Shown: one piece after another, positions 3,467 through 30,301 of the stretch | Numbering within the stretch: position 1 is the first letter of the stretch | Layout of the letters: each line of letters opens with the position of its first letter | Assembly (NCBI RefSeq): GCF_001580535.1 | Contig: NZ_LHZA01000128.1 | Coordinates: 1 to 34,908 of the forward strand | Source: Acetobacter cerevisiae | GTDB taxonomy: Bacteria > Pseudomonadota > Alphaproteobacteria > Acetobacterales > Acetobacteraceae | DNA length: 34,908 nt | Direction of reading: 5' to 3' | Translations under genes and position numbers: made by a program | Notes under the pieces: generated by a model | Databases searched by the model: none | Seen by the model: only the letters and a program-made list of their open reading frames with translations | What the model was told of the DNA's origin: nothing

Positions 3467-4360
3467 ATGCGTTTACGTCAGATCGAAGTTTTCTACGCGA
3501 TCATGTCCACGGGCTCTCTGCGCCGTGCTGCTGAGGTCCTGCATGTCTCCCAGCCAGCAGCCAGCAAGGTGCTGCGCTATGCGGAGCAGTCTTTAGGGTT
3601 TGCGCTGTTCGAGCGTACCGGGGGCAGGCTGGTGCCCACGCGGGAAGCACGGATCATGCTGCCGCATGTGAATACGATTTTTGAAAAAATTTCTGATCTC
3701 AAAAGATTAACGGAAAACCTGCGTTATGCGCGGGATGGGCACGCCATCAGCATCGGTTGTGTGCCCAGTCTGGGGCTGAGCGTGGTGCCACGGGTTATCC
3801 AGCGCTATCACGCGGCACATCCGGGAAACGAGCTGACAATCGATACGCTGCACGGGCCGGAAATTGTCGCGCGCATTCTCAATCATGATCTTGATTTGGG
3901 GATTGTGTTTGGGACGTATGAAAAGCAGGGACTCACGGCTAGCCATATTGCCGATGTCCCTTTGGTGCTGATTGACCAGGAGACCGTTACAGGCCCGGTC
4001 GCGCTGGAAGACATTAATCCGGCCCGCTATATTGGCCTGAGTGAGAATGATCCTACCGCCCGCCTGCTGGATATGGTGTGGGAAGAAGCGGACCTCTCGA
4101 CTGTGCCGGTTGTGCGGGTGCGCACACATTATATGGCGGCGGAACTGGTCCGCCTTGGCGGCGGCTGCGCTATTGTAGATGGGCTGACGGCTTTGCATCA
4201 TCCGGGGTTGCCCCCACCGCTTCCGCTCAAGCCCCCTCTGGGCATTGCCTGCACGGTTCTCTTCCGTGCTGATTACGCACTTTCACATATTTCCCGTGAT
4301 ATTCTGGAACTCCTTAAAGAGGAGATTCAAAAAGACCTTGCGGGCCTGCCCGCCCTGTAA
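3467..4360 (+). CDS. LysR-family transcriptional regulator
   Basis: A 297-residue protein with the standard LysR layout. An N-terminal winged helix-turn-helix covers residues 1-60, with the signature ...TGSLRRAAEVLHVSQPAASK followed by LGFALFER and GRLVPT. A periplasmic-binding-protein-like effector domain runs from about residue 90 to the end. The length is normal. It stands directly upstream of, and on the same strand as, the receptor and hydrolase island, so it is the natural candidate regulator of that island. The effector might be a D-amino acid or a released product; that is inference. A perfect dyad lies before its own start and another before the next gene. Confidence 0.93.
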   Translation: MRLRQIEVFYAIMSTGSLRRAAEVLHVSQPAASKVLRYAEQSLGFALFERTGGRLVPTREARIMLPHVNTIFEKISDLKRLTENLRYARDGHAISIGCVPSLGLSVVPRVIQRYHAAHPGNELTIDTLHGPEIVARILNHDLDLGIVFGTYEKQGLTASHIADVPLVLIDQETVTGPVALEDINPARYIGLSENDPTARLLDMVWEEADLSTVPVVRVRTHYMAAELVRLGGGCAIVDGLTALHHPGLPPPLPLKPPLGIACTVLFRADYALSHISRDILELLKEEIQKDLAGLPAL

Positions 4361-4485: not shown

Positions 4486-7347
4486 ATGATGCGTCGATCA
4501 GGGATTTATAGAAAAAGACTGCTTTTTTTAGGGATTTCCGCTTTCTGCTATGGCTGGACGACTGAGGCCAACGCCCAGATCATTTCCCTGCCGGGCACAA
4601 CCACCGGGAAAGCGATTACCAACAAGACATCCAAAAAATCCGATGTGACATCCAAATCCAACGGAAAGGATGAAGCAATCACGGTGGTCGGCACGCATCT
4701 GGGTGCGGTCGAAACGGCGGAAATTCAGCCGGTTACCGTTATCACGAGTGAGCAGATCCAGCAGTCTTCTTCCATGACGACGGGGGATGTGTTTGCTCAC
4801 ATTCCGTCCATGGGGTTTTCAGGCAACACGTATTCCAATGCTGGTGGCTCCTGTCTGAACATCCGTAGCCTTGGTACAGCCCGTACTCTGGTGCTGGTTG
4901 ATGGTCATCGCATGGTCAATGGTAATGGCGCGGTCGATTGCCCGGATGTGAACAGCATTGTTCCCGCCATGATTGACCGTATTGAAATCCTGAAAGATGG
5001 CTCTTCAACCACTTATGGATCTGACGCGATTGCAGGTGTCGTCAATATTATTCTGAAGAAGAATTTTACCGGAACAACCCTGACCGCAAACGGCGGCATT
5101 AGTGAATATGGGGACGATCAGACGGCCGCGCTCACCGCAGCGCATGGCTTCAACTTCATGCATGATCGGGGCAATTTTACGATTGCCGGGTCCTATAACT
5201 ATCAGGCTCCCATGGCGGCGGACCAGCGCAAGTGGGCCATGCAGGAAGCGAAGGTTAATAACCCGCCAGGGCAGGAGCAGTATTATGGGTCACAATATGG
5301 TGCCCAGCCTGTTTATGCAGCCCTCAATGGCGGTGCGCCGCTAACGCCGTCCAGTGACGGTGTTGCGCAATCTGTCATTTCCGACGGGCATGGTGGTTAC
5401 AGACCCTATAAATGGAGTGATAATTATGATTACTCCAAAGATAACCAGATTATAGCAGAGCAGCAGGTCGGGTCTCTGGCATCGACAGGCCATTTTGACG
5501 TCAATAGCAACCTGCAACTCTATATGACGGCAAACTACAGCCACACACATACGGTGAGCGCAGGCACACCTATGTATATTGCGACACCGGCCACCACGCT
5601 GACAGGCAACTCTGGCGCAATGGTTGTGCCCGCCGGTGAACCGGGCAATCCTTTTGGCTCAGACGTCGCACTGAACCAGCGTATGTTCGGGATTGGCCGT
5701 GAATATGACTATGAAAATATTGATTACTATCAGCTGACAGGCGGTGCACGGGGCACGTTGCCGCACACCGGCGGCTGGACGTATGACTTCTTCTTCTCTT
5801 ACGGAAAAACCACGACGTCTGATAAAGGGACGGGGCGCGTCAACTGGCGCAATATGGAAAATGCACTTGGTTTTCAGCAAACCGGGGGCGCTGGTTCAAC
5901 CGAGGGATATTACGACCCCAATCTCTGTGCAAATACGTCCGGTTGCGCGCCGTATAACCCGTTTACAGGCAGCATGTCTCGTGCTGCGGCAAACTATATA
6001 GGGTTTGACGACGTTTATCCGTCCGCTCAGGAAATGCGGGACGTTCAGTTTACCGTTGCCAATAAGCATCTGGCCCGTCTGCCGTATGGCCCTCTGGGAA
6101 TTGCTCTGGGTGTGGAACATCGGAGTCTGGATGGCTACTGGTATTCTTCCTGGCAGGATAAAGCAGGTTTGAACTCGAACCAGGTTCGGGGTGATACTGG
6201 CGGCGGCTATAACGTGACGGAAGTTTTTGGGGAATTGAGTATTCCGCTGTTGCGGAATCTGCCTGCCGCTAAAGCTCTGAATGCTGAAGTTTCCGGACGG
6301 TTTTCAAACTACAACACATTCGGACAAGCCTATAACTGGCATGCTGGCCTGATTTATGCGCCAACGGATGATATTAAATTCCGGGTCAATATCGCAACAG
6401 GCTTCCGGGCTCCGACCATTCAGGACCTGTACAAATCAAAAATCATCAGCCTGACGGGTACGCGTGATCCGTGCGCCTATATCTCGACCTATCCCGGCGC
6501 TGTTCAGGGGGTAATGTCGGATAACTGCCGTGCGCAGGGGATCAACCCAAACACGTTCAAGCAGACAAACGGTTCTCTGAAATATGAAACAGGTGGAAAT
6601 GCTAGTCTGAAACCTGAAATTTCCAGAACCTATACAATTGGTTCTATCCTTACGCCACGTTTCATTCCGGGCCTTACCGCAACAGTTGATTACTTCCATA
6701 CGCATATCACGGAGACAATCGGCTATCCCTCACTCTCCACAGAACTGAACGGATGTTATGAAAGCACCGGCCTTTCAAGCAGCTATTGCTCCATTCTGAA
6801 TGGCCGTGACGTGAATGGTCAACTCTATCCGGTTGCGCGTTTGCATGAAAATACCGGCGCATTTATCGAAGACGGTCTTGATATCAATGCGTCCTATCAG
6901 GTGCCGATTGACTACAACAACGGCCTCTCTTTCGGTGCCGATATTCAGGATATCATGTCCTATAAATCGCAAAGTCAGGATGGGGAGGCTCTTATTTCCT
7001 ATCTGAGTACGGATGCGGGTGTGCCCAAATGGGTTGCCAATGGAACAGCTACCTTTACCCACGGGCCGTGGAGCTTCACCTACATGGTCCGGTTTATTGA
7101 TGGGTTTACCTATTATCCAAGCTCATCTTATGGCCCGACTGTGTCTGAGTGGTGGAAAACTAATCAGGCCTGGTATCATGATGTGATGATGACCTATCAC
7201 GGAGACATGTATAGTGTCACAGCGGGTGTGAAAAACCTTGCTGGTCGGGATCCGAATTTCTACGCGAACGGGGATTATAATACGTCACCGGGCATGTATG
7301 ACTATGCTGGCCGCTATATTTATCTGAAAGCACAGGTCCATTTCTAG
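4486..7347 (+). CDS. TonB-dependent outer membrane receptor
   Basis: A 953-residue receptor. The signal peptide ends near residue 30 (...TEANAQ), followed by a Ser/Thr/Lys-rich linker and a TonB-box-like AITVVGT near residue 64. The plug domain carries [37 protein letters not shown] and similar motifs, and a beta-barrel ends in the aromatic terminus ...LKAQVHF. This branch of the family is widely used for peptide or sugar import rather than only siderophores. No Fur-box-like sequence was seen upstream. It heads a run of exported amidohydrolases and peptidases, so import of their substrate is the likely role. Start: AAGGAAAG precedes tandem ATG codons at 4486 and 4489. Confidence 0.93.
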
Positions 7348-7360
7348 GCCAGATAACGGG

Positions 7361-7588
7361 GTGGGGGCGGTGCAGAACCCGCCTCCTTCCCGCATTGTCT
7401 CTATTGATATCCTGCGCAGTATCACCGTGGCTTTTATGATTCTTGTCAATAATCCCGGAGATTGGAATAAGGTCTGGTCTCCTCTGGAACATGCTGCGTG
7501 GAATGGCTGCACGCCTGCGGATCTTGTTTTTCCGTTCTTCCTGTTGCTTTATGGCTTGTACCGTAAAAAAATCCTTCTAAGGCTTTAG
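7361..7588 (+). pseudogene. N-terminal remnant of a NagX/heparan-alpha-glucosaminide acetyltransferase-like membrane protein
   Basis: This 75-codon frame begins with GTG and ends in TAG. It contains the conserved N-terminus of the COG4299/DUF5009 family: [40 protein letters not shown]. Family members normally have about 350-400 residues and many membrane segments; here the frame stops after the first segment and the next gene starts within a few tens of bases. Most of the gene has therefore been lost, apparently by deletion. NagX-type proteins are linked to amino-sugar use, which hints that the ancestral locus handled peptidoglycan-derived material. The family assignment is from the motif alone. 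Confidence 0.65.
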
Positions 7589-7621
7589 TTTTCTATGTTT
7601 CATTCACAGGTATTTCCCTCT

Positions 7622-9241
7622 ATGCGACAGCACCCCACGAGAATGAAACAGCGTGCAGGCATTGCCATGCAGTGCGGCACGCTGGCTGGGCTGTTGATGG
7701 CGCTTAGTGGCACATCAGTTCAGGCAGCAACGCCGTCTCTGCCTGATGGTCTGACAGAGCAGAAGATTGATGATGTTGTTACCAAAGCGCAGAAGGCTTT
7801 TGATGTGCCGGGTATCGCCGTTGGTGTGATCCATGATGGAAAAATCGTTTTTGCTAAAGGCTATGGGCGCCGGGAGGATAATGAAAAAAGCGGGAAGGTC
7901 GATCCCAATACCCTTTTCGCTATTGGCTCCAACAGTAAGGAATTTACGACCACCGCTCTGGCAACCCTTGTGGATGAGGGGAAGCTGAAATGGACCGACC
8001 GCGTCATTGATGTCATGCCCGAGTTCAGGGTTTCTGACCCGTGGATTACGCGTGAGTTCCGTGTGAGTGACCTGCTGACCCATCATAGCGGCATGGGGCT
8101 GGGAGCGGGAGATATGATGCTGTTCTCCCATAGCACCTTCACGCGTAAGGATGTTCTGGCCGCACTTCCTTATATGCCGTTTACGGGCCGGTTCCGGGCG
8201 GACTATGCCTATAACAATCTGCTCTATGTGGTGGCCGGAGCGCTTGTCGAAAAAATCTCCGGCCAGACATGGGAACATTACGTCCAGACACATCTGATTG
8301 ATGCGGCAGGTCTCCCGGCGTGCCAGAGTACATTCCCGGTCAAGGGGCAGACGGATGTTGCCGCAGGGCAGGGGAGTGATGGCGTTCTGCCGGACCGTGC
8401 CACGCTGGAACCGGTTGCCGTGGCGCCGGCGGGTGGTGTGTGGTGCAGCGTAAACGGCATGAACCGCTGGGTACAGACGCTTCTGAACGGCGGCAAGACC
8501 GTGGAGGGGCGCAAAATTATCAGCCTCGCCCAGCGTGATGCCCTGTGGGCGCCTTCAGCACTCATTCCGGTGCCTGACAGCGGGAGCAAAACGCAAAGCC
8601 ACTTCCGTGCTTACGGTTATGGCTGGTTTATGGAAGATTTTTACGGCCTCAAACGCGTGTGGCACACAGGGACTATCAGCGGCATGGTCAGCTATGTCTC
8701 CATGCTCCCAGAGAAGAATACCGGGCTGGTCGTCCTCACCAATCATTATGCTAACTCCGCAACCGCTGCCATTGCCGTCACCATGAGTTCCTTCATCGCC
8801 ACCGGCAAAAGTGCAGACTGGGTCGCATACTGGCAGGATGAGACTAAAAAGGCGCAGGCCAAGGCGGAAAAAGAAGCGTCCACCACCGGGCCGGGGTCAC
8901 CCGCGCGGCCCTTTATCGCTCTGCCGGTGTCTGATCTGAAAGACTATGTCGGCCTTTATCACGACTCATGGCGCGGCGATATCCGCCTCTCACTGCAAGG
9001 CAAGGATCTGGTCATGACGTTTGGGAAGGCCGATGGTCTGGCCGGCACCCTGTCCGCCCTGCCGCATGATCTGTTTGTGGCAAAGTGGCAGAACCGGGCT
9101 GAGGATGCGGAGGACGACAGCTACGTGCAGTTTGAGCGCAATACTTCCGGCAAGGTCACGGGGTTCCATATGCAGGTGGTCGGCTCTGATTTCAGCTTTG
9201 ACGCGCAGGATCTGCATCCGCTCAAGGTTTCCGATCAATGA
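7622..9241 (+). CDS. Exported S12-family serine hydrolase (class C beta-lactamase fold) with DUF3471 domain
   Basis: A 539-residue protein from this start. A Sec signal ends ...SGTSVQA. The beta-lactamase-type domain has the nucleophile motif GSNSKEF (Ser103, Lys106), a Tyr-x-Asn motif in YNNLLY and a C-terminal HTG box in WHTGTISG. After a Lys/Ala-rich linker, residues from about 420 resemble DUF3471, a beta domain common in this family. S12 enzymes include D-aminopeptidases, D-Ala-D-Ala carboxypeptidases, esterases and class C beta-lactamases; sequence alone cannot choose. An in-frame ATG at 7595 lacks a ribosome binding site and would add nine residues; an ATG at 7643 is also possible. It overlaps the next gene by 4 bases, so the two are translationally coupled. 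Confidence 0.88.
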   Translation: MRQHPTRMKQRAGIAMQCGTLAGLLMALSGTSVQAATPSLPDGLTEQKIDDVVTKAQKAFDVPGIAVGVIHDGKIVFAKGYGRREDNEKSGKVDPNTLFAIGSNSKEFTTTALATLVDEGKLKWTDRVIDVMPEFRVSDPWITREFRVSDLLTHHSGMGLGAGDMMLFSHSTFTRKDVLAALPYMPFTGRFRADYAYNNLLYVVAGALVEKISGQTWEHYVQTHLIDAAGLPACQSTFPVKGQTDVAAGQGSDGVLPDRATLEPVAVAPAGGVWCSVNGMNRWVQTLLNGGKTVEGRKIISLAQRDALWAPSALIPVPDSGSKTQSHFRAYGYGWFMEDFYGLKRVWHTGTISGMVSYVSMLPEKNTGLVVLTNHYANSATAAIAVTMSSFIATGKSADWVAYWQDETKKAQAKAEKEASTTGPGSPARPFIALPVSDLKDYVGLYHDSWRGDIRLSLQGKDLVMTFGKADGLAGTLSALPHDLFVAKWQNRAEDAEDDSYVQFERNTSGKVTGFHMQVVGSDFSFDAQDLHPLKVSDQ

Positions 9242-10422
9242 CAGTTCGGCTCCCGGCTTTTTCCCGCAGGGGTTTTTTGCAGGGATCTTCTCTTCTGCTT
9301 GCACAGGCAGGCCTGTCAGCCTGCCAGACGCCATCGCGTGAGGCTGACAGATTTGCAAAAGCGGATGCACTGATCGAGAAGGCAATTAGCAAAGGCGAGT
9401 GCCCCGGCGCGTTATGGGGTGTGGGTCAGCAGGGGCGGCTGATTCACCGTGGCGTCTTTGGTGCGCGCAGCCTTGTGCCAACGCGTGAGGCCATGACGTG
9501 GGACACCGTGTTCGACATGGCCTCCCTCACCAAACCAATGATCACCGCGCTGGCTGTCATGCAGCTTGTGGAAAAAGGTCTGGTGGATGTGGATGCACCT
9601 GTAGCCCGTTACCTTCCGCAATTTGCTGCGGCTGGGAAAGCGCAGATTACAGTGCGGTTGCTGCTCACGCATTTTTCCGGCCTGCAACCCGATCTGCCCC
9701 GCACGCCGGACTGGTGGGGGAAAGCCGCCGCAACAGACCGTATCATGCAGGCCGTTCCCAAAATTGCGCCGGGCAGCGGCTTTATTTACAGTGATCTTAA
9801 TTTTATCACTCTCGGGCTTCTGGTTGAAAAACTGACAGGGCAGACACTGGATGGGTATGCGCAGAACGCTATCCTCACCCCGCTTGGCATGACGCAATCA
9901 GGCTTTGTGCCGCCCCCATCCGAACAGGCACGTATTGCGCCCACGCAGTATGATGAACACGGCACGATGTTGCGCGGTGTGGTGCATGACCCCACGGCGC
10001 GCCGTATGAACGGCGTTGCGGGGAATGCGGGCCTGTTTTCTACGGCGGAAGATGTGGCCCGTTATGCGCAGGCTTTGCTGAACAAACGGGCGGGACGGCC
10101 CAGCGTATTTCCTCTCAGCCGCGCAACGCTGTTGACCATGACAATACCCCAGCAGCCGGCAGGCCAGAAGAGCCTGCGTGGTTTTGGGTGGGATATTGCG
10201 TCTCCCTATGCCTCTCCCAGAGGAGAGCGGCTGTCCCATCATTCCTTCGGCCATACCGGGTTTACAGGCACGTCGCTGTGGATTGATCCTGATAACGATT
10301 GCTATGTTTTTATTCTGACCAACCGTGTCCACCCTAATGGAGGGCATAGTGTAGTGCATTTACGGCATGATGTAGCAACGGCAGTCGGGGAGGCTCTAAG
10401 GCTGCCGTTAACCGTGCCGTAA
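9238..10422 (+). CDS. S12-family serine hydrolase, predicted lipoprotein
   Basis: 394 residues. The N-terminus combines an RRGFLQG twin-arginine-like motif with a lipobox LSAC, suggesting lipidation at Cys29 and anchoring to a membrane. The catalytic motifs are ASLTKPM (Ser96, Lys99), YSDLNF in place of the more usual Tyr-x-Asn, and HTGFTGT near the C-terminus. The Tyr-Ser-Asp variant is seen in esterase- and peptidase-like members of the family, so a D-peptidase, carboxypeptidase or esterase is more likely than a true beta-lactamase. The ATG overlaps the TGA of the preceding gene. Together the pair gives one soluble and one membrane-anchored enzyme of the same fold. Confidence 0.88.
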   Translation: MTVRLPAFSRRGFLQGSSLLLAQAGLSACQTPSREADRFAKADALIEKAISKGECPGALWGVGQQGRLIHRGVFGARSLVPTREAMTWDTVFDMASLTKPMITALAVMQLVEKGLVDVDAPVARYLPQFAAAGKAQITVRLLLTHFSGLQPDLPRTPDWWGKAAATDRIMQAVPKIAPGSGFIYSDLNFITLGLLVEKLTGQTLDGYAQNAILTPLGMTQSGFVPPPSEQARIAPTQYDEHGTMLRGVVHDPTARRMNGVAGNAGLFSTAEDVARYAQALLNKRAGRPSVFPLSRATLLTMTIPQQPAGQKSLRGFGWDIASPYASPRGERLSHHSFGHTGFTGTSLWIDPDNDCYVFILTNRVHPNGGHSVVHLRHDVATAVGEALRLPLTVP

Positions 10423-10444
10423 GCAAAAGTGCTTCGTCGCAGGG

Positions 10445-10541
10445 TTAACCTCAGGTTAAGGGTGGCGGGCATTTTTTAAATGGCATGCAGGGGGATCTGT
10501 TTTTAGATTTTCTACTGAGAAGATCCCGGAACATGGCATGC
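10445..10541. repeat. Palindrome and repeat-flanked hairpin before the DadA gene
   Basis: In the gap between the S12 lipoprotein and dadA, TTAACCT-C-AGGTTAA (10445-10459) is a perfect dyad. Downstream, the direct repeat ATGGCATGC occurs at 10480-10488 and 10533-10541. Between its copies lies an inverted repeat GGGATCT (10492-10498) and AGATCCC (10521-10527). This may be a regulatory leader with an internal promoter, or the footprint of a very small insertion; neither is proven. Confidence 0.45.
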
Positions 10542-10588
10542 GCATGTTTGAGCGGGCTCGTCATGATCATAAGGGGGCGATGGTTCTT

Positions 10589-11797
10589 ATGCCTGCAAAG
10601 CGGACAATCACGGTAGTGGGTGGAGGCGTTATTGGCCTGACAACCGCATATGCGCTCATCCAGGCCGGACACAGTGTGACGCTGGTGGAGCGGGAGGATC
10701 AGGTTGGTGAGCAGGCAAGCTTTGGCAATGGCGGCCAGCTAAGCTACCGCTATGTGCGGCCATTGGCGGATGCCGGGATTCCGCTGGAAGCGCTCTCATG
10801 GATGCTGCAGGCCGACTCTCCCATTTCCCTCAGGCTCCGGCTGAACTGGCAACAGTGGCGGTGGCTGACAGATTTTCTGCTGGCCTGCAATGCCAGAACC
10901 AACCAAGCCAACGCCGCCCGGCTTTTAAAGCTCGCCTTGCAGGGGCAACAGGCTCTCAACCTGTGGCGAGAGGATGGGCTGGCGGACTTTTTGTGGCGGA
11001 AGCCCGGTAAGCTGGTTGTGTATCGGAACGCACACAAATTTTCCAAAGCCGCCAAATCTGTCAGTAACCCGCAGCAGGAACAGGTTCTGACCCCGGCGGA
11101 GTGTGCGCAGGTAGAACCTGCTTTTGCAGGTCTTGCACCCACACTGGCAGGCGGTATTTTTTCTCCTGATGATGAAGTGGCGGATTGCTATCTGTTCTGT
11201 CAGGCTCTTCTTAAATCCCTCAAACAGAGCAAAGATTTTCAGATTGTAAAAGGCGATGTCGCTCTGGAGGAAGATCAGGATGCGCGGTGCCGGGTGCGGA
11301 TCAATGGGGCAGTGTGGCAGACGGACCTTGTGGTTCTGGCGGCAGGGTTGGCTTCTCGCGCGCTGATGCAGCCACTGGGTCAAAGACTGCCTCTTTACGG
11401 GCTGAAGGGATACAGCCTGACGGTGGAGGCAGATCCGGCCGTGCTGCCTGATGTGAGTGTCACGGATTATGATAACCGCGTTGTGTATGCCCGTCTGGGC
11501 GATCGGCTCCGTATTGCCGCCATGGTCGATATTGGTGCGCTGAATGCCTCGGCTGATCCGCGCCGGATAGCCTCGCTGAAACATCTGGCGGAGGAAACGC
11601 TACCGGCCGCCGGGCCTTATGCGTCCGCCGCCACCTGGGCGGGGATGCGGCCCGCCACGCCCACCGGGGTACCTTTGGTGGAGCGGACGCAATGGCGTAA
11701 CCTGCTGCTCAATGTTGGCCATGGGGCTTTGGGGTTCACGCTTTCCGGCGGCTCCGCCCTGACCATTCGGGACCTTGTTGAAGAGATGCAGCCGTAA
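10589..11797 (+). CDS. dadA: FAD-dependent D-amino acid dehydrogenase (DadA family)
   Basis: A protein of about 402 residues from this start. It opens with the FAD-binding Rossmann motif TITVVGGGVIGLTTAYAL...VTLVE and follows DAO/DadA organisation, with a substrate domain and a C-terminal return to the FAD domain (WAGMRPATPTGVPL, GHGALGFTLSGGS). DadA enzymes oxidatively deaminate D-amino acids to 2-oxo acids and ammonia at the inner face of the cytoplasmic membrane, passing electrons to the respiratory chain. The start was chosen because AAGGGGG stands 11 bases upstream and the Rossmann strand begins at once; ATG 10580 and 10538 are in frame upstream. The next gene starts one base after its stop. 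Its presence among D-residue-type hydrolases is the strongest clue to the island's chemistry. Glycine or other amine oxidation is an alternative. Confidence 0.87.
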   Translation: MPAKRTITVVGGGVIGLTTAYALIQAGHSVTLVEREDQVGEQASFGNGGQLSYRYVRPLADAGIPLEALSWMLQADSPISLRLRLNWQQWRWLTDFLLACNARTNQANAARLLKLALQGQQALNLWREDGLADFLWRKPGKLVVYRNAHKFSKAAKSVSNPQQEQVLTPAECAQVEPAFAGLAPTLAGGIFSPDDEVADCYLFCQALLKSLKQSKDFQIVKGDVALEEDQDARCRVRINGAVWQTDLVVLAAGLASRALMQPLGQRLPLYGLKGYSLTVEADPAVLPDVSVTDYDNRVVYARLGDRLRIAAMVDIGALNASADPRRIASLKHLAEETLPAAGPYASAATWAGMRPATPTGVPLVERTQWRNLLLNVGHGALGFTLSGGSALTIRDLVEEMQP

Positions 11798-11798
11798 A

Positions 11799-14243
11799 AT
11801 GAGACACTCCTCCCTTCTCACCCGTCGCCACGTTCTGCTGGGGGGTGTTGCCGCCGGTTTGGCAGGACTGACCGCTTCCCGCGCTCTGGCCCGGCAGGGG
11901 GCCTCTTCCAGCCTGATGGGGCTGGAGGGGCTGGATGCACCGGTCGAGGTGCTGGAGGACCAGTGGGGCGTGCCGCATGTGCGGGCGGCTTCCGTGCCGG
12001 ATGCGTTTTTTGCAAATGGCTATCTGATTGCGCGAGACCGGCTGTGGCAGCTCGATTTTGAGTATCGCCGGGCATTGGGCAGACTGGCGGAAGTGTATGG
12101 GCCTGACTGCGTGCCGTCTGACACGGCAAGCAGGCTTTTCTTGTTCCGGGGCGATGCACAGGCAGAGTTTGCGGCGCTGCCGCCCGCCGTGCAGGCCTGC
12201 GCCCGCGCCTATGTGGCGGCCATCAACGCCTATCTTGCCCGCATCAACACGGGTGAAGAAAAACTTCCTTCAGAATTCGATATTTTTTCATACCATCCTC
12301 TTGCGTGGGATGTTCTGGATCTGGTGCGTATCCGGGCGGAAGCAACAGGGAACACCAAAGCCGAAATCCGCCGTGCCCAACTGGCGGCGCAGGACGCGCT
12401 GGCCTATGACGCGCTGATCCAGCCTCTGCGCCCCGCCCATACGCTCAGGGTGCCGGATGGGCTGGATGTGCATGCTGTCACAGAGCAGGATCTGGGCCTT
12501 TTTGGTGTTTTGCAGGATGGCTCCTCTCTTTCCGGCCTGCATGCGGTGCCATCCCCCAGTGAGGGCGACCATCGACGCGCCAATGAAGGTAGTAACGCGT
12601 GGGTCATTGCACCCACGCGCACGGCCACCGGTCGCCCCATTCTGGCGAATGACCCGCATCTCAGTTTTGGCTCACCGGGGCCACGGCATGTCATCCATCT
12701 GACAGCACCGGGGCTGGATGTAATTGGCGGTGGGGCACCGGGTATGCCGGGCGTCATGCAGGGGCATAACGCGCATTTTGCTTTTGGGCGCACCAATTTT
12801 CATATCGATCAGGAAGATCTGTTTATCCTGCGCACGCATCCCGACCATCCTGACCGCTATTTTCATAACGGGTACTGGGTGGAGATGGAGCATGAGGAGA
12901 TCTCCATTGCTGTGCGTGGCGGCCCTGCGCAAAGCGTTACCTTGCGCTATGCGGCACAGGGGCCGGTTGTCTCTGCCGATCCTGCGCGGAACAGGGCTGT
13001 GGCAGTTTCCGCCACATGGCTCTATCCGGGCGCGAATGGCATGCTGGCTAATATCGGCATCAATCTTGCCAGCGACTGGGACAGTTTCCGTAAAGCCCTC
13101 AAACTCCATACCAGTCCAACAAATTTCACATACGCCGATACAGCGGGGAATATTGGCTGGCAGGCTGCGGGCGGTCTGCCGGAACGTCGCAACGGCTATG
13201 ATGGATTGCTGCCAGCCCCGGGGGATGGGCGGTATGACTGGAAGGGTCTCCAGCCGCTGGATGCGCTTCCCAACAGCTTCAATCCCGCCCGTGGCTGGTT
13301 TGGCACCTCCAACGAACTCAATCTGCCAGCGGACTACCCTTACGAGGAACGCTGCGTCAGTTACGAATGGAAAGACCCTTACCGTTACCAGCGTGTTGCA
13401 GAAGTCCTTCAGGCCTCTCCTCATGCTACAGTAGCGGATAGTGTGGCCTTGCAGCATGATACGCTCTCTCATCTGGCTTTGTCCGTGGTGCAACTGCTGC
13501 CGGAAGTGCCTGCGCCTATACAGGCAGAAGCCGCGTTGCTGCGCCAATGGAATGGGCACGTAGAGGCCACAAGTGCTGGCGCTGCGTTGTATGAGGTGTG
13601 GTGGACCCGCCTGAATACCCTGTTCTATCAAGCGCTGGTGCCGGAAAACCTGCGTTCTCTTCTGCCACAACCGCTTAACGCGTCTGTTCTGCTGGCACTC
13701 CTGCAAAAGCCCGATAGCCGATTGGGCTCGACGCCGGAGGCACAGCGTGATGCTCTGCTGGTCAAAGCGTTTCAGCAGGCCGTGGAAGAGTTGCGCGACC
13801 GTCTGGGGCCGGTGGCCGCCGCATGGCAGTGGGGCACCCTGCATACCGTGCAGCTTCGTCACCCGCTGCATGGTGTGAAAGCTGTAGCAGAAGCGTTTCT
13901 GCCCATAGGGGGAGAAACGGCCCGGAGTGGGGGAGACCCTTACACGGTCATGGCGCGCTGGTATAATCCGGATTTGTCAGAAAAAGCGCTTGCGCAGGGC
14001 CATAACCCGTATGCTGTAACAGGCGGGGCCAGTTATCTGATGGTGTGTGATGTCGGGGCGTGGGACAACTCACGGTTCCTTAACTTCCCCGGCCAGTCCG
14101 CCTTGCCGGACAGCGGGCATTATGCGGATGTCCTGCAACTCTGGCTCAAGGGCGCTATGCAGCTTCTTCCATTCTCTGCAAAAGCCGTTCAAGCCGCAGC
14201 CAGACATCATGCCGTCTTGTATCCAAAAGGAAAAACGCTATGA
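11799..14243 (+). CDS. Penicillin acylase-family Ntn amidohydrolase, Tat-exported
   Basis: An 814-residue precursor. The signal has the twin-arginine form LTRRHVLLGG...ASRALA. The family's N-terminal block is present (EVLEDQWGVPHVRA, YLIARDRLWQLDF). The autoprocessing site and nucleophile are in ANEGSNAWVIAP: cleavage before Ser265 would expose it as the N-terminal nucleophile of the beta chain, followed by NDPHL and PGMPGVMQGHN blocks. Relatives hydrolyse N-acyl amides such as penicillin G, cephalosporin side chains and acyl-homoserine lactones. Here a role in removing an acyl cap from an amino acid or peptide is inferred. The ATG at 11799 gives a proper signal peptide; an ATG at 11775 would overlap dadA. 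The end overlaps the next gene by ATGA. Confidence 0.9.
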   Translation: MRHSSLLTRRHVLLGGVAAGLAGLTASRALARQGASSSLMGLEGLDAPVEVLEDQWGVPHVRAASVPDAFFANGYLIARDRLWQLDFEYRRALGRLAEVYGPDCVPSDTASRLFLFRGDAQAEFAALPPAVQACARAYVAAINAYLARINTGEEKLPSEFDIFSYHPLAWDVLDLVRIRAEATGNTKAEIRRAQLAAQDALAYDALIQPLRPAHTLRVPDGLDVHAVTEQDLGLFGVLQDGSSLSGLHAVPSPSEGDHRRANEGSNAWVIAPTRTATGRPILANDPHLSFGSPGPRHVIHLTAPGLDVIGGGAPGMPGVMQGHNAHFAFGRTNFHIDQEDLFILRTHPDHPDRYFHNGYWVEMEHEEISIAVRGGPAQSVTLRYAAQGPVVSADPARNRAVAVSATWLYPGANGMLANIGINLASDWDSFRKALKLHTSPTNFTYADTAGNIGWQAAGGLPERRNGYDGLLPAPGDGRYDWKGLQPLDALPNSFNPARGWFGTSNELNLPADYPYEERCVSYEWKDPYRYQRVAEVLQASPHATVADSVALQHDTLSHLALSVVQLLPEVPAPIQAEAALLRQWNGHVEATSAGAALYEVWWTRLNTLFYQALVPENLRSLLPQPLNASVLLALLQKPDSRLGSTPEAQRDALLVKAFQQAVEELRDRLGPVAAAWQWGTLHTVQLRHPLHGVKAVAEAFLPIGGETARSGGDPYTVMARWYNPDLSEKALAQGHNPYAVTGGASYLMVCDVGAWDNSRFLNFPGQSALPDSGHYADVLQLWLKGAMQLLPFSAKAVQAAARHHAVLYPKGKTL

Positions 14244-15499
14244 AATTTAAAGTCTGTTCCGTTCTGGCTCTGGCGTTTTTCAGCACAACCGCTTTGGCGC
14301 AAACCGCGACTGATAAAAAGATGGATGCCGTGTTAACGCACGGTGAAAGCCAGCCTCTGGCGGCACTCGCTGCCGTCAAGCTGGACAATGGTCAGCCTGT
14401 TTACCAGTATTATGGCGGGTTTGCGCGGCGTGATGGCGCTCAAACTGTTCCGGTTAGGCAAGAAACGCTCTTCCGTATTGCGTCCATCTCCAAGGTGGTG
14501 ACCACTATCGGACTGATGGAACTGGTTGAACAGGGCAAGATCAATCTCGATCATGATATCTCGGAGTATCTCGGCTTTCCGCTGCGCAATCCGGATTTCC
14601 CCACAACGCCCATTACCGTGCGGATGCTTTTAAACCATACCTCCACCATTCGGGATGGTGATGTGTATGTTTTGCCGCCCGGCAAGACGGTTCGTGATTT
14701 TTTTGATGAGAGCCATAAACCTGGAAGTCAGGACTATCATTTCTCTTTTCATGATGGCCACGCACCCGGAACATATTTTACCTATTGTAACCTGTGCTAC
14801 GGGCTGGTTGGCACCATCATCGAGCGGGTCAGCGGGGAGCGGTTTGACCACTACCAGAAACACCATGTTCTGGAACCGCTGAAAGTTGACGGTGGCTATA
14901 ATGTCGCGGAGCTTGAGCATCCGGAGCGTCTGGCCACGCTTTATCAGCATTTACCCTCTGAGTATGAAGCCGCAGTTGATAGCCAGCCTCTTAAAGGCTG
15001 GAGCAAAGAGGCTTTAGCGTCCTACAAAATTGGCAGCAATGGCAGCGTGTTTTCTCCACAGGGCGGGCTGCGTATTTCTCTGCAGGGTCTCACACGTCTG
15101 GCGCAATTTATGATCCAGCGCGGCACGCTTGACGGTGTCAGGCTTCTGGCTCCCCAGAGCATTGAGGCGATGGAAACACCCACATGGACATTTAATGGCA
15201 AGAATGGCGTTTGCCCTTACCCGCTCAGCGCTTATGGCCTAAGCCTGTTTACGCTGACAGGCACAAAAGACACCAACGGAAAACCTGCCATTCCCTATAT
15301 CGGGTATCAGGGCGGCTTGCGTGGCCATCTGGGTGATGCGTACGGACTGCATTCCGGCTTCTGGTATAATCCCCAAAACGGAGAGGCCTATCTGTTTGCG
15401 GCGGATGGCTACCCTGATTATGAGCAGGAGAAGACCGGACAGTATTCTTCTTTCTCCAGAGTAGAAGAAGAAATTTTCACAACTCTGGCGGGAAAATAA
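14240..15499 (+). CDS. Exported S12-family serine hydrolase
   Basis: 419 residues with a clear Sec signal (MKFKVCSVLALAFFSTTALA). The catalytic set is IASISKVV (Ser82, Lys85), YCNLCYG as Tyr-x-Asn, and HSG in GLHSGFWYN near the C-terminus. It is the third class C beta-lactamase-fold enzyme of the island and differs from the other two in having no DUF3471 domain and no lipobox. D-aminopeptidase, D-stereospecific amidase or esterase activity is possible. It is translationally coupled to the acylase upstream (ATGA overlap) and lies 2 bases before the S9 peptidase, so all three probably share a transcript. Confidence 0.88.
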   Translation: MKFKVCSVLALAFFSTTALAQTATDKKMDAVLTHGESQPLAALAAVKLDNGQPVYQYYGGFARRDGAQTVPVRQETLFRIASISKVVTTIGLMELVEQGKINLDHDISEYLGFPLRNPDFPTTPITVRMLLNHTSTIRDGDVYVLPPGKTVRDFFDESHKPGSQDYHFSFHDGHAPGTYFTYCNLCYGLVGTIIERVSGERFDHYQKHHVLEPLKVDGGYNVAELEHPERLATLYQHLPSEYEAAVDSQPLKGWSKEALASYKIGSNGSVFSPQGGLRISLQGLTRLAQFMIQRGTLDGVRLLAPQSIEAMETPTWTFNGKNGVCPYPLSAYGLSLFTLTGTKDTNGKPAIPYIGYQGGLRGHLGDAYGLHSGFWYNPQNGEAYLFAADGYPDYEQEKTGQYSSFSRVEEEIFTTLAGK

Positions 15500-15501
15500 T
15501 T

Positions 15502-17577
15502 ATGATGATCCGTTCTGCCTTCGCAGCCGCCCTTCTTGCTGGTGGTTTATACTCCGTCTCTCCCGCAAGTGCTGCGCCGCTTGATGAGACAGGAGCCCGG
15601 CATCAGATCACGGCACTTCTGTCTATGCCGTTCGCCACAAATCTGGTTGGGGCCAGCAACGCGAACCGGTTTGCGTGGGTGGAAAAGCGCAACGGTGTGC
15701 GGAATATTCTGGCAGCGGACGCGGCAGGAACACCAAAAGGCCTGACGCATTTCACGCAGGATGACGGCAGCAATCTATGGAGCGTGGCCCTCTCCTCTAA
15801 TGGCAAGACGGTTGCCTATGTGGAAGGAGGAGACCCGGAATTTCCGGACGCCTCTTCTCCTAACCCGAACCTTTCAGAAACAGGAACGCATCAGAGCGTA
15901 AATGTGGTGCTGGAAAGTGGCAAACAGATGCGAATGGGGGAAGGCTGGAACCCCACATTCTCTCCGGATGGGGCGACGCTGGCGTTCTCGCGCAAAGGCA
16001 CCCTGTTTCTGGCCCCCGTTGGTAAGGTGGCGAAAGAGGTCATGAGCGTGCCGGGGAGCCTTACGTCCCTGCAATGGGCACCGGATGGCTCGACGCTGGT
16101 CTTCACGCTGGACCGTGGCAGTCATGCACTCATTGGATTATGGCACGTCAAAACGGCGACCATGACATTTCTTGCTCCCGCACTGGGGCAGGATAGTCTG
16201 CCAACATTTTCTCCGGATGGTCATTCTGTGGCGTTTGTGCGAGAGCATAGGCCGCTGACTGATAAGAAGACCGAAAAAGGCTCTTTCTGGTCGCTGCATG
16301 TTTATGATCTGGCCAGTAATACAGACCATGTTGTGTGGACACCGCCTGCCGGGACGGGTGCACGGTTTGCTGTGCCGGAGGGGAGCAGCCTTCTGTGGTC
16401 TGATAACGCCCATCTGCTCTTCCCGTGGGAAGGAAGCGGATGGATGCGGGTTTGTGCTGTGGCGGCATCGGGCACAGGAATCCCGTCCTGTCTGACGCCA
16501 GATAAGGCGGAAGTCTCATCCTATCGGTTGTCACAGGACAGAAAGACGCTTTTTTACACAAGCAATGTCGGGAATGTGGATGCCTGGCACGCATGGCGGC
16601 TGGCTCTGGACGGCTCTTCTCCCCAGCGTTTGACCCACAGTGAAGATATGGAAACAGACCTTGCTGTGGCCGGAGCAAAGGTGGGCGTCATCGCCGCCAG
16701 TGTCACACAGACAGCGCATCCGGCGGTGGTCGGGCCGGATGGTGCAAGCGCGCCGCTTGTTTCTCCGCAAGCACCGTCAGATGTGCATTTCGTGACCCCG
16801 CAAGTGGTTGTGTTCCACAGCGCTGATGGCGTTGAAGTGCATGGACAGCTTTTTGTGCCGGAGGGAGAGGCTAAAACACCGCGCGCTGCCTTGGTGTTTG
16901 TGCATGGTGGGCCGCATCGCCAGACGCTCCCTGCCTTTAATGGCATGGACTATTATTCCAATGCCTATGCCATGAACCAGACCTTGGCGGCGCAGGGCTA
17001 TGTTGTGTTGTCCGTCAATTATCGGAGCGGGACAGGCTATGGCGAGGCGTTTCGGAATGCGCCTGAAACGGGCGGACACGGAGCCAGTGAATATCGGGAT
17101 GTCTTTGCTGCTGCCACCTATCTCAGGGCCCGAGCGGATATTGATCCCGCGCGGATCGGCATCTGGGGCGGAAGCTGGGGCGGCTATCTGACGGCACTCG
17201 CTCTGGCCCGTAATAGTGATGTCTTTGCGGCAGGCGCGGATTTTCATGGCGTGCATGATATGATCGACCCCGACACATATGGCCTTTCCCCTGAGGAGAA
17301 CAGGAAAGCGCATGAAGTGGAATGGCAGTCCTCCCCTGCGGCAGATATTGCTCACTGGCATGCTCCGGTTCTTCTAGTGCATGGTGATGATGATTATAAC
17401 GTCGAATTTGAGCAATCGACCCTTCTGGCAAAACTGTTGTCAGAGCAGGGCGTGCTGTATGAGGAACATTCTTTTCCCAATGAACGGCATACTTTTTTGC
17501 GCATGCAGGATTGGCTGACGGCCTATATGTGGATGGATACGTTCTTTGCCCATACACTGACGTCTCATAAGCCCTGA
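15502..17577 (+). CDS. Exported S9 prolyl-oligopeptidase-family peptidase
   Basis: 691 residues. A Sec signal (about residues 1-24, ...SPASAA) precedes a seven-bladed-propeller-like region with WD40/PD40-type strands (SPDGATLAFSRKG, APDGSTLVFTLDRG, SPDGHSVAFVRE). The alpha/beta hydrolase domain follows from about residue 430, with GGSWGG (Ser558), HGDDDYNV (Asp631) and NERHTF (His663) as the triad. S9 enzymes cut short peptides, often after Pro or releasing dipeptides or acyl-amino acids; lasso-peptide isopeptidases also belong to this clan and are likewise found next to TonB receptors. It could finish degradation of peptides trimmed by the neighbours. Confidence 0.92.
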   Translation: MMIRSAFAAALLAGGLYSVSPASAAPLDETGARHQITALLSMPFATNLVGASNANRFAWVEKRNGVRNILAADAAGTPKGLTHFTQDDGSNLWSVALSSNGKTVAYVEGGDPEFPDASSPNPNLSETGTHQSVNVVLESGKQMRMGEGWNPTFSPDGATLAFSRKGTLFLAPVGKVAKEVMSVPGSLTSLQWAPDGSTLVFTLDRGSHALIGLWHVKTATMTFLAPALGQDSLPTFSPDGHSVAFVREHRPLTDKKTEKGSFWSLHVYDLASNTDHVVWTPPAGTGARFAVPEGSSLLWSDNAHLLFPWEGSGWMRVCAVAASGTGIPSCLTPDKAEVSSYRLSQDRKTLFYTSNVGNVDAWHAWRLALDGSSPQRLTHSEDMETDLAVAGAKVGVIAASVTQTAHPAVVGPDGASAPLVSPQAPSDVHFVTPQVVVFHSADGVEVHGQLFVPEGEAKTPRAALVFVHGGPHRQTLPAFNGMDYYSNAYAMNQTLAAQGYVVLSVNYRSGTGYGEAFRNAPETGGHGASEYRDVFAAATYLRARADIDPARIGIWGGSWGGYLTALALARNSDVFAAGADFHGVHDMIDPDTYGLSPEENRKAHEVEWQSSPAADIAHWHAPVLLVHGDDDYNVEFEQSTLLAKLLSEQGVLYEEHSFPNERHTFLRMQDWLTAYMWMDTFFAHTLTSHKP

Positions 17578-17653
17578 CCAGCAAGGGCATCGTCTTAAAA
17601 ACGCTTATAGGGCGTACGCTGTGGTGTATGATAGATCAAGGAGGGAAAAGCTG

Positions 17654-18568
17654 ATGAAGATGCTGAAAATTTCCACTGTTCTGGCAAAAACCTTTTTAGC
17701 CGGAGCACTCCTGATGCCTCATCTGGCCAGCGCGGCGCCTTCCGCCGGGTCAAACCCCCTGGCGCAGATCATGGCAAAAACGGTCAGCAAGCAGCCGGGG
17801 CATTTTGCTGTTTATGCGGCACGTAGTGGTCAGGCGCCGGATGTGTGCCTGAACTGCGATGATCTGATTAATGCAGCCAGCACCATGAAGCTGTTCGTGC
17901 TGGATACAGCCTATGAGGCCTTTACAAAAGGCACCTTGCATCCAGAAGATACCATTGTTGTTCACAACCATTTTCATTCTTTGGTGGGAAAGGGGAGCTT
18001 TGCGCTTGAGCAGAAAGAGGATTCTTATGACCCTCTCTACGCGCAGGCAGGCAAGCCGGTGCCTGTTTCAGAACTTCTGCGCGTGATGATCCAGTATAGC
18101 AGCAATCTGGCGACCAACCTGATGATTGAAAAGCTTGGGGTGCTCCCAATACGCTCCGTCGTGAAAGCGCAGGGCCTCATTGGCATCGTCTTCGGGCGGA
18201 TGATTGAGGACTTTGATGCGAATGATCAGGGAATTCGTAATCAGGTTTCAGCACGTGGGTTAGGGGATTTTCTGCAAAAGCTGGATAGCGGGAAGATTGT
18301 GGGTAAGGCGCAAAGCCAGAGCATGATCCAGATTATGCTGGGGCAGAAATTTAATGACATTATTCCCCCCGGCCTGCCCGCCAGCACACCCGTGGCCCAT
18401 AAGACCGGCTGGGTCGATGGCGTGCGGAATGATGCCGCCATTGTCACCCTGCCTGATGGCAAACGCTATATTCTGGTGGTGCTGACATCCGGTTTGCCGG
18501 ACGAACAGGCCGGGATCAGGGTGCTGAATACGCTTTCTCATCAGGCGTATGAATATTTTTTAAAATAG
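17654..18568 (+). CDS. Exported class A beta-lactamase-like serine hydrolase
   Basis: 304 residues with a Sec signal (MKMLKIS...MPHLASAAP). The class A motifs are partly kept: AASTMK (Ser76, Lys79), YSSN in place of the Ser-Asp-Asn loop, and HKTGW as the KTG box. The omega-loop Glu-x-x-x-Asn motif needed for deacylation in class A beta-lactamases is not evident; the equivalent stretch reads around MIEDFDANDQG. It is therefore better regarded as a penicillin-binding or D,D-peptidase-like hydrolase than as a resistance enzyme. The start was set by AAGGAGGG 8 bases upstream of ATG 17654. It is last in the co-directional island, 76 bases after the S9 gene. Confidence 0.85.
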   Translation: MKMLKISTVLAKTFLAGALLMPHLASAAPSAGSNPLAQIMAKTVSKQPGHFAVYAARSGQAPDVCLNCDDLINAASTMKLFVLDTAYEAFTKGTLHPEDTIVVHNHFHSLVGKGSFALEQKEDSYDPLYAQAGKPVPVSELLRVMIQYSSNLATNLMIEKLGVLPIRSVVKAQGLIGIVFGRMIEDFDANDQGIRNQVSARGLGDFLQKLDSGKIVGKAQSQSMIQIMLGQKFNDIIPPGLPASTPVAHKTGWVDGVRNDAAIVTLPDGKRYILVVLTSGLPDEQAGIRVLNTLSHQAYEYFLK

Positions 18569-21156: not shown

Positions 21157-21204
21157 AATCGTTTCTTAGCGTTCTGTTTTGTGTCTTCTCTGACGGATAA
21201 TTTC

Positions 21205-23320: not shown

Positions 23321-24118
23321 TTAGTCGATAACGACTGTGGCTTCATCCGTCAGAACGCGGAACAGGAAGCTTTCCTGCAGGTAGAGTTCCACGGTGGTGG
23401 CCGTGTGGCTCAGATAACCGATGGAGAAATCCTGCCCGATATCCAGCGCCAGATCGCCCCCGCGCATGGAGACAAGGAACGCGCCCTCAATAGCCGGAGC
23501 CCAGATGATTTTGCCGTCAATCATGCTCTCAATGTGCTTGATGATTGGATAGCCATCATCCCCACCGCCCGTCACAGCCTGATACGCCTGCGCGCCCAAA
23601 ACCAGTGAATACGGGCCATTTACACCCGCAAGGCGCAGGCTGCTCAGCGCATCGGCCACCACACCCGGATAGTTCTTGGCAGATGTGGGCAGTTTGAGAT
23701 GAGCGTTGGAGCTGCGCCCCCGGATGCCCGCCATGCCAGCAGCGTCATAGCCGTTGAAAATGGCGCGATCTTCAAAGAACGCGATTTTTTGCGCGGCATC
23801 TTTTACCGGCTGCCAGTCGGCATCTAGCGCGCCACGTTCCACGGCGTCAATTTCCTCGCGGGAGAGGGTAAAGGGCACGCGCACTTCCACCGGCGGCAAA
23901 ACTTCACGCTTGACCGCATGAATGCCGTCTTCCGGTGTGACGAGAGCGGTGGCCCGGCCTGTGCCAACACCAGAAAATGCGGTGCCTTTGGGCTCGGACG
24001 TATCCACCACGCGGCGGCCTGCCAGATTGCGGCGGATGGTGCGGGCGGCTTCTTCCTCAATTTCCGCCCACGCGGCGCTGGAGACAGGAGCCAGATGTTT
24101 ATGCAGATTGTTCATCAT
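23321..24118 (-). CDS. Family 1 encapsulin shell protein
   Basis: A 265-residue protein with the HK97-fold encapsulin (linocin-M18-like, PF04454) signature. The N-terminal MNNLHKHLAPVSSAAWAEIEEEA helix for cargo docking is followed by RTIRRNLAGRRVVD and FTLSREEIDAVERG. Later blocks include DREDRAIFNGY-like FFEDRAIFNGYDAAG, GPYSLVLGAQAYQ and the C-terminal GQDFSIGYLSHT...LYLQESFLFRV. Length is standard for family 1. It follows the peroxidase gene by 8 bases, and its AAGGA ribosome binding site overlaps the peroxidase stop codon, so the shell is coupled to its cargo. Two tandem ATGs (24118, 24115) are possible starts. It assembles into a cytoplasmic protein nanocompartment. Confidence 0.95.
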   Translation of the reverse strand: MMNNLHKHLAPVSSAAWAEIEEEAARTIRRNLAGRRVVDTSEPKGTAFSGVGTGRATALVTPEDGIHAVKREVLPPVEVRVPFTLSREEIDAVERGALDADWQPVKDAAQKIAFFEDRAIFNGYDAAGMAGIRGRSSNAHLKLPTSAKNYPGVVADALSSLRLAGVNGPYSLVLGAQAYQAVTGGGDDGYPIIKHIESMIDGKIIWAPAIEGAFLVSMRGGDLALDIGQDFSIGYLSHTATTVELYLQESFLFRVLTDEATVVID

Positions 24119-24126
24119 ACGTGTCC

Positions 24127-29097: not shown

Positions 29098-29184
29098 GCG
29101 TCGTGCTCCTGATGAACCATGCTGCCGGTTCGTATGGTGAAGATGAGAAATGCAGGCTTTTGATATGAGCGCAGGCACAAAGAT

Positions 29185-29203
29185 GCAAATGATTATCAAT
29201 AAC
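29185..29203 (-). promoter_or_regulatory. Fur-box-like site for the siderophore receptor operon
   Basis: GCAAATGATTATCAATAAC matches 14 of 19 positions of the Fur consensus GATAATGATAATCATTATC, with the core ATGAT.ATCA intact. It lies 88 bases before the receptor start. Fur or a related iron regulator would repress from here; binding is inferred. Confidence 0.65.
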
Positions 29204-29400
29204 GAAAATAGGCGTTTTCTGAGTGTGTGGCGCAGGTGCCACAGGGCGGGGGAGGGCACAAAAAAGTGAGTTTTTTGAAAGGGAAATAAAAATATTTGTT
29301 ATTTCAATAAGTTATATAGAAATTTTCAGTGGTAGGGATGTTCCTGCGACGTTGGCAGGCTTATGGCCCATGCCGACAGGACGCATATTTTTCTCTATAT

Positions 29401-29419
29401 GATAGTGATTCTCACTTGC
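29401..29419 (+). promoter_or_regulatory. Fur-box-like site for exbB-exbD-tonB
   Basis: GATAGTGATTCTCACTTGC matches 13 of 19 positions of the Fur consensus and keeps the dyad form. It overlaps a possible -10 hexamer TATGAT (29398-29403), an arrangement suited to repression. It lies about 120 bases before exbB. Confidence 0.55.
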
Positions 29420-29536
29420 ATGAGTGGGAAGGCCTTGTTATCGCTGGCCTGATTATCCCTGCTGGAAAAGCCGTTGTCCGGCCTTTTTCTGCACGGTTCC
29501 CCGCCTGACATCGTTGTAAACGCGCAGGATTCTTTA

Positions 29537-30292: not shown

Positions 30293-30301
30293 GGGGCTGA
30301 T

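Follow-up and report, generated by a model that had tools for sequence, protein, structure and literature searches.

Introduction

The use of peptidoglycan fragments is already known from Bacillus subtilis and Tannerella, as described in the available parts of the literature. The N-acetylmuramic acid (MurNAc) recycling operon of B. subtilis, murQRP-amiE-nagZ-ybbC, holds murQ, an amidase gene and ybbC (PMC5061867, available text). Clusters for N-acetylglucosamine (GlcNAc) utilization in Caulobacter combine a TonB receptor with NagA and NagB (PMC13046382, available text). The D-succinylase of Cupriavidus sp. P4-10-C (PDB 7EA4, 7EBY), an N-terminal nucleophile (Ntn) hydrolase of family S45, acts on N-succinyl-D-amino acids and makes D-amino acids, although the L-form is also attacked to some extent (PMC7431475, in excerpt). 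DgcN and DgcA form a route from D-Glu to L-Glu, or a racemization route for acidic D-amino acids (PMC10845958 and PMC12363236, in excerpt). Here, we describe a gene island in a stretch of 34,908 bases (the window) of contig NZ_LHZA01000128.1 of Acetobacter cerevisiae, whose genome comprises 3,085,002 bases in 157 contigs. The island encodes a TonB receptor, a penicillin-acylase-family amidase (PA), further hydrolases and a D-amino acid dehydrogenase (DadA), and it is probably (at about 0.8) a peptidoglycan (muropeptide) catabolic locus.

We take ybbC of B. subtilis to be NamZ; the island then resembles the B. subtilis operon in that MurQ and NamZ are linked to it in some relatives. As listed in the available text of PMC5061867, that operon is without the TonB receptor, Ntn amidase, DadA, S9 and class A-like enzymes of the island. 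The Caulobacter clusters resemble the island and its relatives' loci in their gene kinds but are described for the free sugar, and the available text names no peptide or D-amino acid enzymes (PMC13046382). D-succinylase is like PA in full-length homology and in fold; it differs in its sequence (39% identity) and its branch of the tree. DgcN–DgcA lies near PA in many sphingomonads, whereas Acetobacteraceae loci have DadA instead. In the available text of a paper on the Asaia secretome (PMC12502724), nothing attributable to the island was found. What appears to be new here is the combination of genes.

Gene content and conservation of the island

All genes of the island lie on the + strand and were assigned with Pfam. 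The first, a LysR-family regulator gene (3467..4360), had been left out of the initial annotation and belongs to the island. It is followed by genes for a TonB-dependent outer-membrane receptor (TonB1, 4486..7347; proposed importer of muropeptides or amino-sugar peptides), the S12a serine hydrolase with a C-terminal DUF3471 (7595..9241; proposed DD-peptidase or D-aminopeptidase) and the S12b serine hydrolase with a twin-arginine and lipobox-like N-terminus (9238..10422). Next come the DadA-like FAD D-amino acid dehydrogenase (10538..11797) and PA, an S45 Ntn amidase with a signal of the twin-arginine translocation type (11775..14243; Pfam Penicil_amidase; proposed peptidoglycan stem or crosslink amidase). 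The last three encode the S12c serine hydrolase (14240..15499), an S9 prolyl-oligopeptidase-family peptidase (15502..17577) and a class A beta-lactamase-like hydrolase (clA, 17621..18568; Pfam Beta-lactamase2; proposed DD-peptidase). From TonB1 to clA, the genes had been named in the initial annotation, and each was recovered as an open reading frame at these positions, on the same strand and in the same Pfam family. The export signals that it assigned to all products but DadA agree, by eye and with no predictor applied, with N-terminal hydrophobic stretches, twin arginines (PA, S12b) and a lipobox-like LSAC (S12b).

The junctions had been described as overlapping or tight. This is the case for S12a/S12b and PA/S12c, which overlap by 4 bases, and for S12c/S9, with a gap of 2 bases. 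The 23-base overlap of dadA and PA depends on a TTG start of PA at 11775. Since three genomes (G040, G001 and G030; G, C and L numbers denote genomes, contigs and loci) have a stop codon within the stretch matching the first eight codons of the TTG-started PA, the ATG at 11799 is the likelier predicted start; dadA and PA would then not overlap. Spacing from S12a to S9 is operon-like, bar 115 bases between S12b and dadA. The gap between the receptor gene and S12a is 247 bases, so more than one transcript is possible. A promoter/terminator scan (18 found versus 12.5 +/- 3.3 in shuffles; 21 versus 18.5 +/- 4.2) did not settle the number of transcripts.

PA loci were taken as the best 80 of at least 580 confirmed candidates. 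Neighbouring genes were counted by tblastn (E 1e-10, >80 aa), open reading frame calls in GC-rich loci being approximate, and most neighbours were identified by their similarity to a single representative, itself scanned with Pfam or NCBIfam. PA orthologues of at least 60% were present in 11/48 congeners and in two other genomes of the family (G089, G073); the best named relative of the window PA was that of Acetobacter malorum LMG 1746 (96%). The comparison of gene neighbourhoods across Acetobacteraceae that the initial annotation had proposed gave a positive result: dadA immediately preceded PA, both on one strand, in 13/13 named loci (Acetobacter, Gluconobacter, Gluconacetobacter, Brytella and Asaia). 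The other genes were found in these 13 loci in decreasing number (lysR 12, S9 11, S12a 10, S12c 8, class A-like 7, TonB1-like 6, S12b 5). The gene set is thus conserved across species, so the island is more than a chance assembly, and it is a conserved predicted operon. TonB1 varies more: orthologues (72–99%) were found at the island of G033, G037, G008, G040 and G009 (two of them partial), the close relative G038 has no such gene at its island, and in some other loci it was replaced by a receptor only 25–29% identical.

The smallest version of the island (G073, Brytella) consists of lysR-dadA-PA-S12c followed by an ABC importer of the dipeptide/oligopeptide type, scoring below the NCBIfam cut-offs, and an amidase; the type of this importer suggests peptide cargo. 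Versions with lysR, dadA and S9 were also seen in two genomes without any PA match (G070, L171, with S12a and S12c as well; G084, L170), so PA is dispensable in some lineages. In the locus of G009 (L044), lysR, S12a, PA and S9 have broken frames, through decay or sequencing error. A tandem pair of PA-family genes was observed in a Rhodospirillales bin (L049/L112).

Cell-wall sugar genes near the island

NamZ (an exo-muramidase), MurQ, NagB, NagA, NagP, GlcNAc kinase, NagX or PBP4 were found near the island in 10/22 PA-bearing Acetobacteraceae loci (A. indonesiensis, A. farinalis, A. cibinongensis, G037, G008, G009, two Gluconobacter, Brytella and Asaia). A set comprising a sodium symporter gene (SSF), NamZ, MurQ and NagB diverges from lysR in A. 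indonesiensis (L160/L057) and G037 (L162). NamZ and MurQ adjoin the island in G004 and G037, and NamZ adjoins lysR in A. farinalis (L161). In A. cibinongensis (L041/L058), SSF-MurQ-NagB stands on one side of the island and NagK-NagP-NagA on the other. PBP4-NamZ was found in two Gluconobacter (L059, L061), PBP4 in Asaia (L066), and NagB- and NagP-like genes in Brytella (L064). In L040, L044, L037 and L039, TonB1 is separated from S12a by a NagX-like gene; L037 and L039 have a second receptor there as well. NagP-NagA adjoin the PA-less version of G070 (L171). One representative each of PBP4, MurQ, NagB, NagA, NamZ, DgcN and DgcA scored over its curated cut-off, those of DgcN and DgcA being from a sphingomonad locus (L070).

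NamZ was present in 11/11 PA-carrying congeners versus 5/37 non-carriers (n=48; Fisher 1.9e-7, kinship uncorrected); this test, like the one below, ignores kinship and genome completeness (G041, for instance, is 68% complete). The A. cerevisiae genome itself holds SSF-NamZ-MurQ on contig C72 (L159), NagA on C87 and NagB on C112.

PA loci of sphingomonads

PA sequences from 37 sphingomonad loci (47–53% identical) group with those of the Acetobacteraceae in a clade of 49 rows, with a Shimodaira–Hasegawa approximate likelihood ratio test (SH-aLRT) value of 99; 36/37 are in the tree. Near these genes lie a TonB1-like receptor (27/37), DgcN (24/37), DgcA (24/37), an Amidohydro_3 protein (23/37), an S12b-like enzyme (22/37), a symporter of the dicarboxylate/glutamate type (19/37), PBP4 (19/37) and MurQ (5/37). 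No dadA was found near PA in any of the 37 loci. DgcN, DgcA and PBP4 were found near PA in none of the 30 remaining loci, outside Acetobacteraceae and sphingomonads (Fisher for DgcN 3.7e-9). In the tree, 28 of those 30 loci lie on the D-succinylase side and L112 on the other; L108 is not included.

DadA and DgcN–DgcA thus seem, from gene neighbourhoods, to replace each other in the PA locus. This suggests a common role, the disposal of a D-amino acid that PA releases. DgcN as a partner within Acetobacter was also considered and dropped: it had no match in the A. cerevisiae genome and 30 congeners, and the matches in 3/51 genomes searched were all from other families.

The amidase PA

To our knowledge, no action on cell walls is known for the penicillin-acylase family, and we know of no physiological substrate for many members of S45. 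PA matched Pfam Penicil_amidase with 616 bits (E 1e-184) over all 675 profile positions. Its best PDB match by sequence was D-succinylase (E 1e-150, residues 17–817). In the AlphaFold2 model (mean predicted local distance difference test score 79, predicted template modelling score 0.82), the first four PDB fold matches were again D-succinylase (TM 0.82–0.90). A GSN motif with Ser273 at the start of the beta chain, the predicted position of the Ntn nucleophile, was kept in 14/14 sequences, as was the twin arginine. Ser273 and Asn513 (beta position 241), presumably the oxyanion residue, were invariant in an alignment of 13 PA sequences. Here and below, motif counts cover aligned orthologues with a called reading frame.

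The PA tree was built with a quick method and rooted at the midpoint, and L065, L082 and L108 were excluded as having no PA reading frame of 650–1000 aa; long branches were flagged for D-succinylase and L112. D-succinylase falls within 29 rows and the window PA within the other 50 (SH-aLRT 100). D-succinylase is 39% identical to the window PA versus 48–53% to its 24 closest rows, all from the D-succinylase branch, on which it is itself a long branch. The identification of PA as a D-succinylase was therefore rejected, PA being on another branch.

There are three candidates for the bond cut by PA: L-Ala-D-Glu, the 1,3-crosslink between L-Ala and the D-centre of meso-diaminopimelic acid (mDAP), and gamma-D-Glu-mDAP. 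The 1,3-crosslink is made by Acetobacteraceae (PMC10864386, in excerpt). By analogy, the peptidoglycan amides that would match the D-succinylase substrate are L-Ala-D-Glu and, in Acetobacteraceae, also this crosslink; together they are somewhat preferred, since both have a D-centre as leaving amine. The third option was kept because a succinyl group resembles a gamma-glutamyl group. Release of D-Glu is favoured because of the glutamate-specific neighbours in sphingomonads. By the argument from the D-centre, a lactoyl-L-Ala amide is a less likely target. We suggest, tentatively and with more doubt than confidence, that PA may be the founder of a new class of peptidoglycan amidases: an Ntn hydrolase cutting the amide between L-Ala and a D-centre (stem D-Glu, or the mDAP D-centre in the 1,3-crosslinks of Acetobacteraceae) and feeding a D-amino acid branch, through DadA in acetic acid bacteria and DgcN–DgcA in sphingomonads.

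DadA and the serine hydrolases

Island DadA scored 379.7 bits with NF001933 (cut-off 383), a narrow miss, and the FAD-binding GxGxxG motif was kept in 14/14 sequences. Every match of at least 53% came from a genome that has either the island or a version of it without PA (G070, G084), the next matches listed being at most 43%; island DadA is thus a predicted subfamily of its own.

The motifs of the hydrolases were kept in all orthologues aligned. S12a has SxxK, YNN and HTG (11/11), its best PDB match being 2qmi, named Pbp related beta-lactamase. S12b has SxxK, YSD and HTG (6/6), with PBP4B as its best NCBIfam model (138 bits versus a cut-off of 385), and S12c, which is AmpH-like but under the NCBIfam cut-off, has SxxK, YCN and HSG (7/7). 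A fourth S12 gene of the A. cerevisiae genome, 56% identical to S12b, was seen elsewhere (L167, G000:C96), with a TonB receptor gene on the same contig. The S9 peptidase carries GGSWG (12/12) and has best PDB matches of the dipeptidyl-peptidase-4-like kind; a role as lasso-peptide processing enzyme was rejected (86.6 bits versus a cut-off of 400).

The class A-like enzyme shows all three motifs (SxxK, SxN and KTG, as STMK/STIK, SSN and HKTG) in 8/8 orthologues. Its closest solved relative is TLL2115 (PDB 2j7v), which we take to be the cyanobacterial PBP-A, a DD-peptidase-like protein. At the Leu/Glu site that differs between 2j7v and 2j9o, presumably Ambler position 166 (the deacylating Glu166 of the omega loop), the alignment with TLL2115 places an Ile, with a Glu one residue on in 8/8. 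The enzyme scored 85.5 bits with the best NCBIfam class A model (cut-off 200), and the best class C score in the island was 85 (cut-off 415). Beta-lactam resistance was rejected on these scores, which are far below the cut-offs.

Flanking genes

Downstream of clA, the window holds genes for a second TonB receptor (TonB2, 18766–21156) and a phospholipase C (PLC)-like phosphoesterase (21181–23220), both on the + strand. The pair (18766–23220) also follows clA in G033, G038 and G009, and may belong to the locus as an extension. In G030 (L169:2676–7134), a TonB2-phosphoesterase pair 65–69% identical to it stands beside NamZ/MurQ and NagX/TonB.

In front of the island (822–3197) lies a gene for a repeat-containing protein of 791 aa, whose residues 455–589 form a Hint_2 domain. 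On the – strand (23321–25152), an encapsulin gene (Linocin_M18) adjoins that of a DyP-type peroxidase, its likely cargo. Further on (26788–31611) are another TonB receptor gene on the – strand and a TonB protein gene on the + strand. Phage origin of the island was considered and dropped; three flanking proteins gave two weak PHROG matches.

Proposed function and alternatives

From the observed gene content, conservation, linkage and motifs, we infer all substrates and the order of steps as follows. The TonB receptor or receptors would carry soluble peptidoglycan fragments, derived from bacteria that have died or lysed, across the outer membrane. Next, in the periplasm, D-Ala-D-Ala ends and DD-crosslinks would be cut by S12a, S12b, S12c and the class A-like enzyme. 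PA would cut an amide with a stem D-residue as amine partner (L-Ala-D-Glu, or L-Ala on the mDAP D-centre in 1,3-crosslinks, with gamma-D-Glu-mDAP as a further option), and the S9 peptidase would trim the remainder. The freed D-amino acids would enter the cell, where the island-specific DadA would oxidize them to 2-oxo acids and ammonia. Sugars would be used via NamZ, the sodium symporter, MurQ, NagA and NagB, whose genes some relatives have beside the island and A. cerevisiae has at other sites in its genome. LysR would control the locus.

With its deacylation read as amide cleavage, the route in the initial annotation (import, deacylation, D-peptide cleavage, then D-amino acid oxidation) fits this scheme. 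Among the substrates that it listed, peptidoglycan stems are favoured because of the neighbours NamZ, MurQ, NagB, NagA, NagX, PBP4 and DgcN/DgcA; nothing was found in favour of non-ribosomal peptides or beta-lactams. It had also called the system apparently undescribed and, consistent with this, the combination of TonB uptake, an Ntn amidase, S12/S9 hydrolases and DadA was not found in the open-licence PubMed Central papers searched.

Several observations weigh against a peptidoglycan locus. In the window, no peptidoglycan-sugar gene lies beside the island, NamZ, MurQ, NagA, NagB, NagP, GlcNAc kinase, NagX and PBP4 all being absent from it; the A. cerevisiae genome gave no match to NagX, and the island itself is without an inner-membrane carrier. 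Twelve of the 22 loci (A. malorum, G038, G036, G043, G089, G073, G030, Gluconobacter vitians and four Gluconacetobacter) are without NamZ, MurQ, NagA, NagB, NagX, NagP and PBP4 in the sequence examined, absences that are weak as some contigs are short; G073 and G030 show a transporter instead. Five congeners carry NamZ without PA. MurQ was rejected as a marker, being over its cut-off in 70/147 genomes, most congeners included, and so not discriminating. The NagX, NagK and NagP representatives score below NCBIfam cut-offs, and the NagX-like protein of L037 has no Pfam match. NagX and NagP are moreover GlcNAc genes, so chitin could be an alternative. Finally, DgcN was not seen in 13/37 sphingomonad loci, within the sequence examined.

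Housekeeping recycling of the cell's own wall would have the same enzymology with another source, and does not exclude the use of foreign muropeptides. The same kinds of enzyme would serve, and the unusual 1,3-crosslinks are made by Acetobacteraceae themselves (PMC10864386, in excerpt), but the distribution is patchy, with PA in a minority of congeners, and the TonB receptor points to outside material. We consider own-wall recycling unlikely.

Another possibility is a free N-acylated D-amino acid or an acylated D-peptide (a non-ribosomal peptide or lipopeptide), from which PA would remove the acyl cap, the S12 enzymes cutting the D-peptide and DadA oxidizing the product. The initial annotation had proposed such an acylated D-residue, an idea with partial support: D-succinylase, which in both sequence and fold is the solved protein closest to PA, does cleave N-acyl-D-amino acids. 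The Amidohydro_3 protein near many sphingomonad PA genes would also fit, as would the D-peptidases and D-amino acid amidase among the S12 matches. The position of PA outside the D-succinylase branch and the peptidoglycan and D-glutamate genes among the neighbours argue otherwise, and we consider an acylated substrate of this kind improbable.

S12 enzymes can act as D-alanyl esterases on teichoic acids. A broader catabolism of Gram-positive walls would have them in this role, with the PLC-like phosphoesterase cutting the polymer and DadA using D-Ala. The S12 matches include 'Protein flp', and the TonB2-phosphoesterase pair follows the island in the window and three other genomes, a related pair standing beside NamZ in G030. 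Within the limited sequence examined, however, the pair was found in only 3/22 of the relatives' island loci; we consider this catabolism highly improbable. Detoxification or catabolism of beta-lactams, in which the acylase would remove the side chain, the S12 and class A enzymes would open the ring and DadA would oxidize the D-side chain, has family resemblances in its favour, but with model scores this far below the cut-offs and the sugar and D-Glu neighbours of the relatives left unexplained, its probability is close to nil.

Significance

The D-amino acids of peptidoglycan hold a large reserve of nitrogen and carbon that is used slowly. If the island is indeed a muropeptide catabolic locus, it would connect MurNAc and GlcNAc catabolism with uptake through TonB receptors, D-peptide hydrolases and the oxidation of D-amino acids, and would give a natural role to one branch of the penicillin-acylase (S45) family. 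It would also illustrate a way in which sphingomonads and acetic acid bacteria may live off dead bacteria around them.

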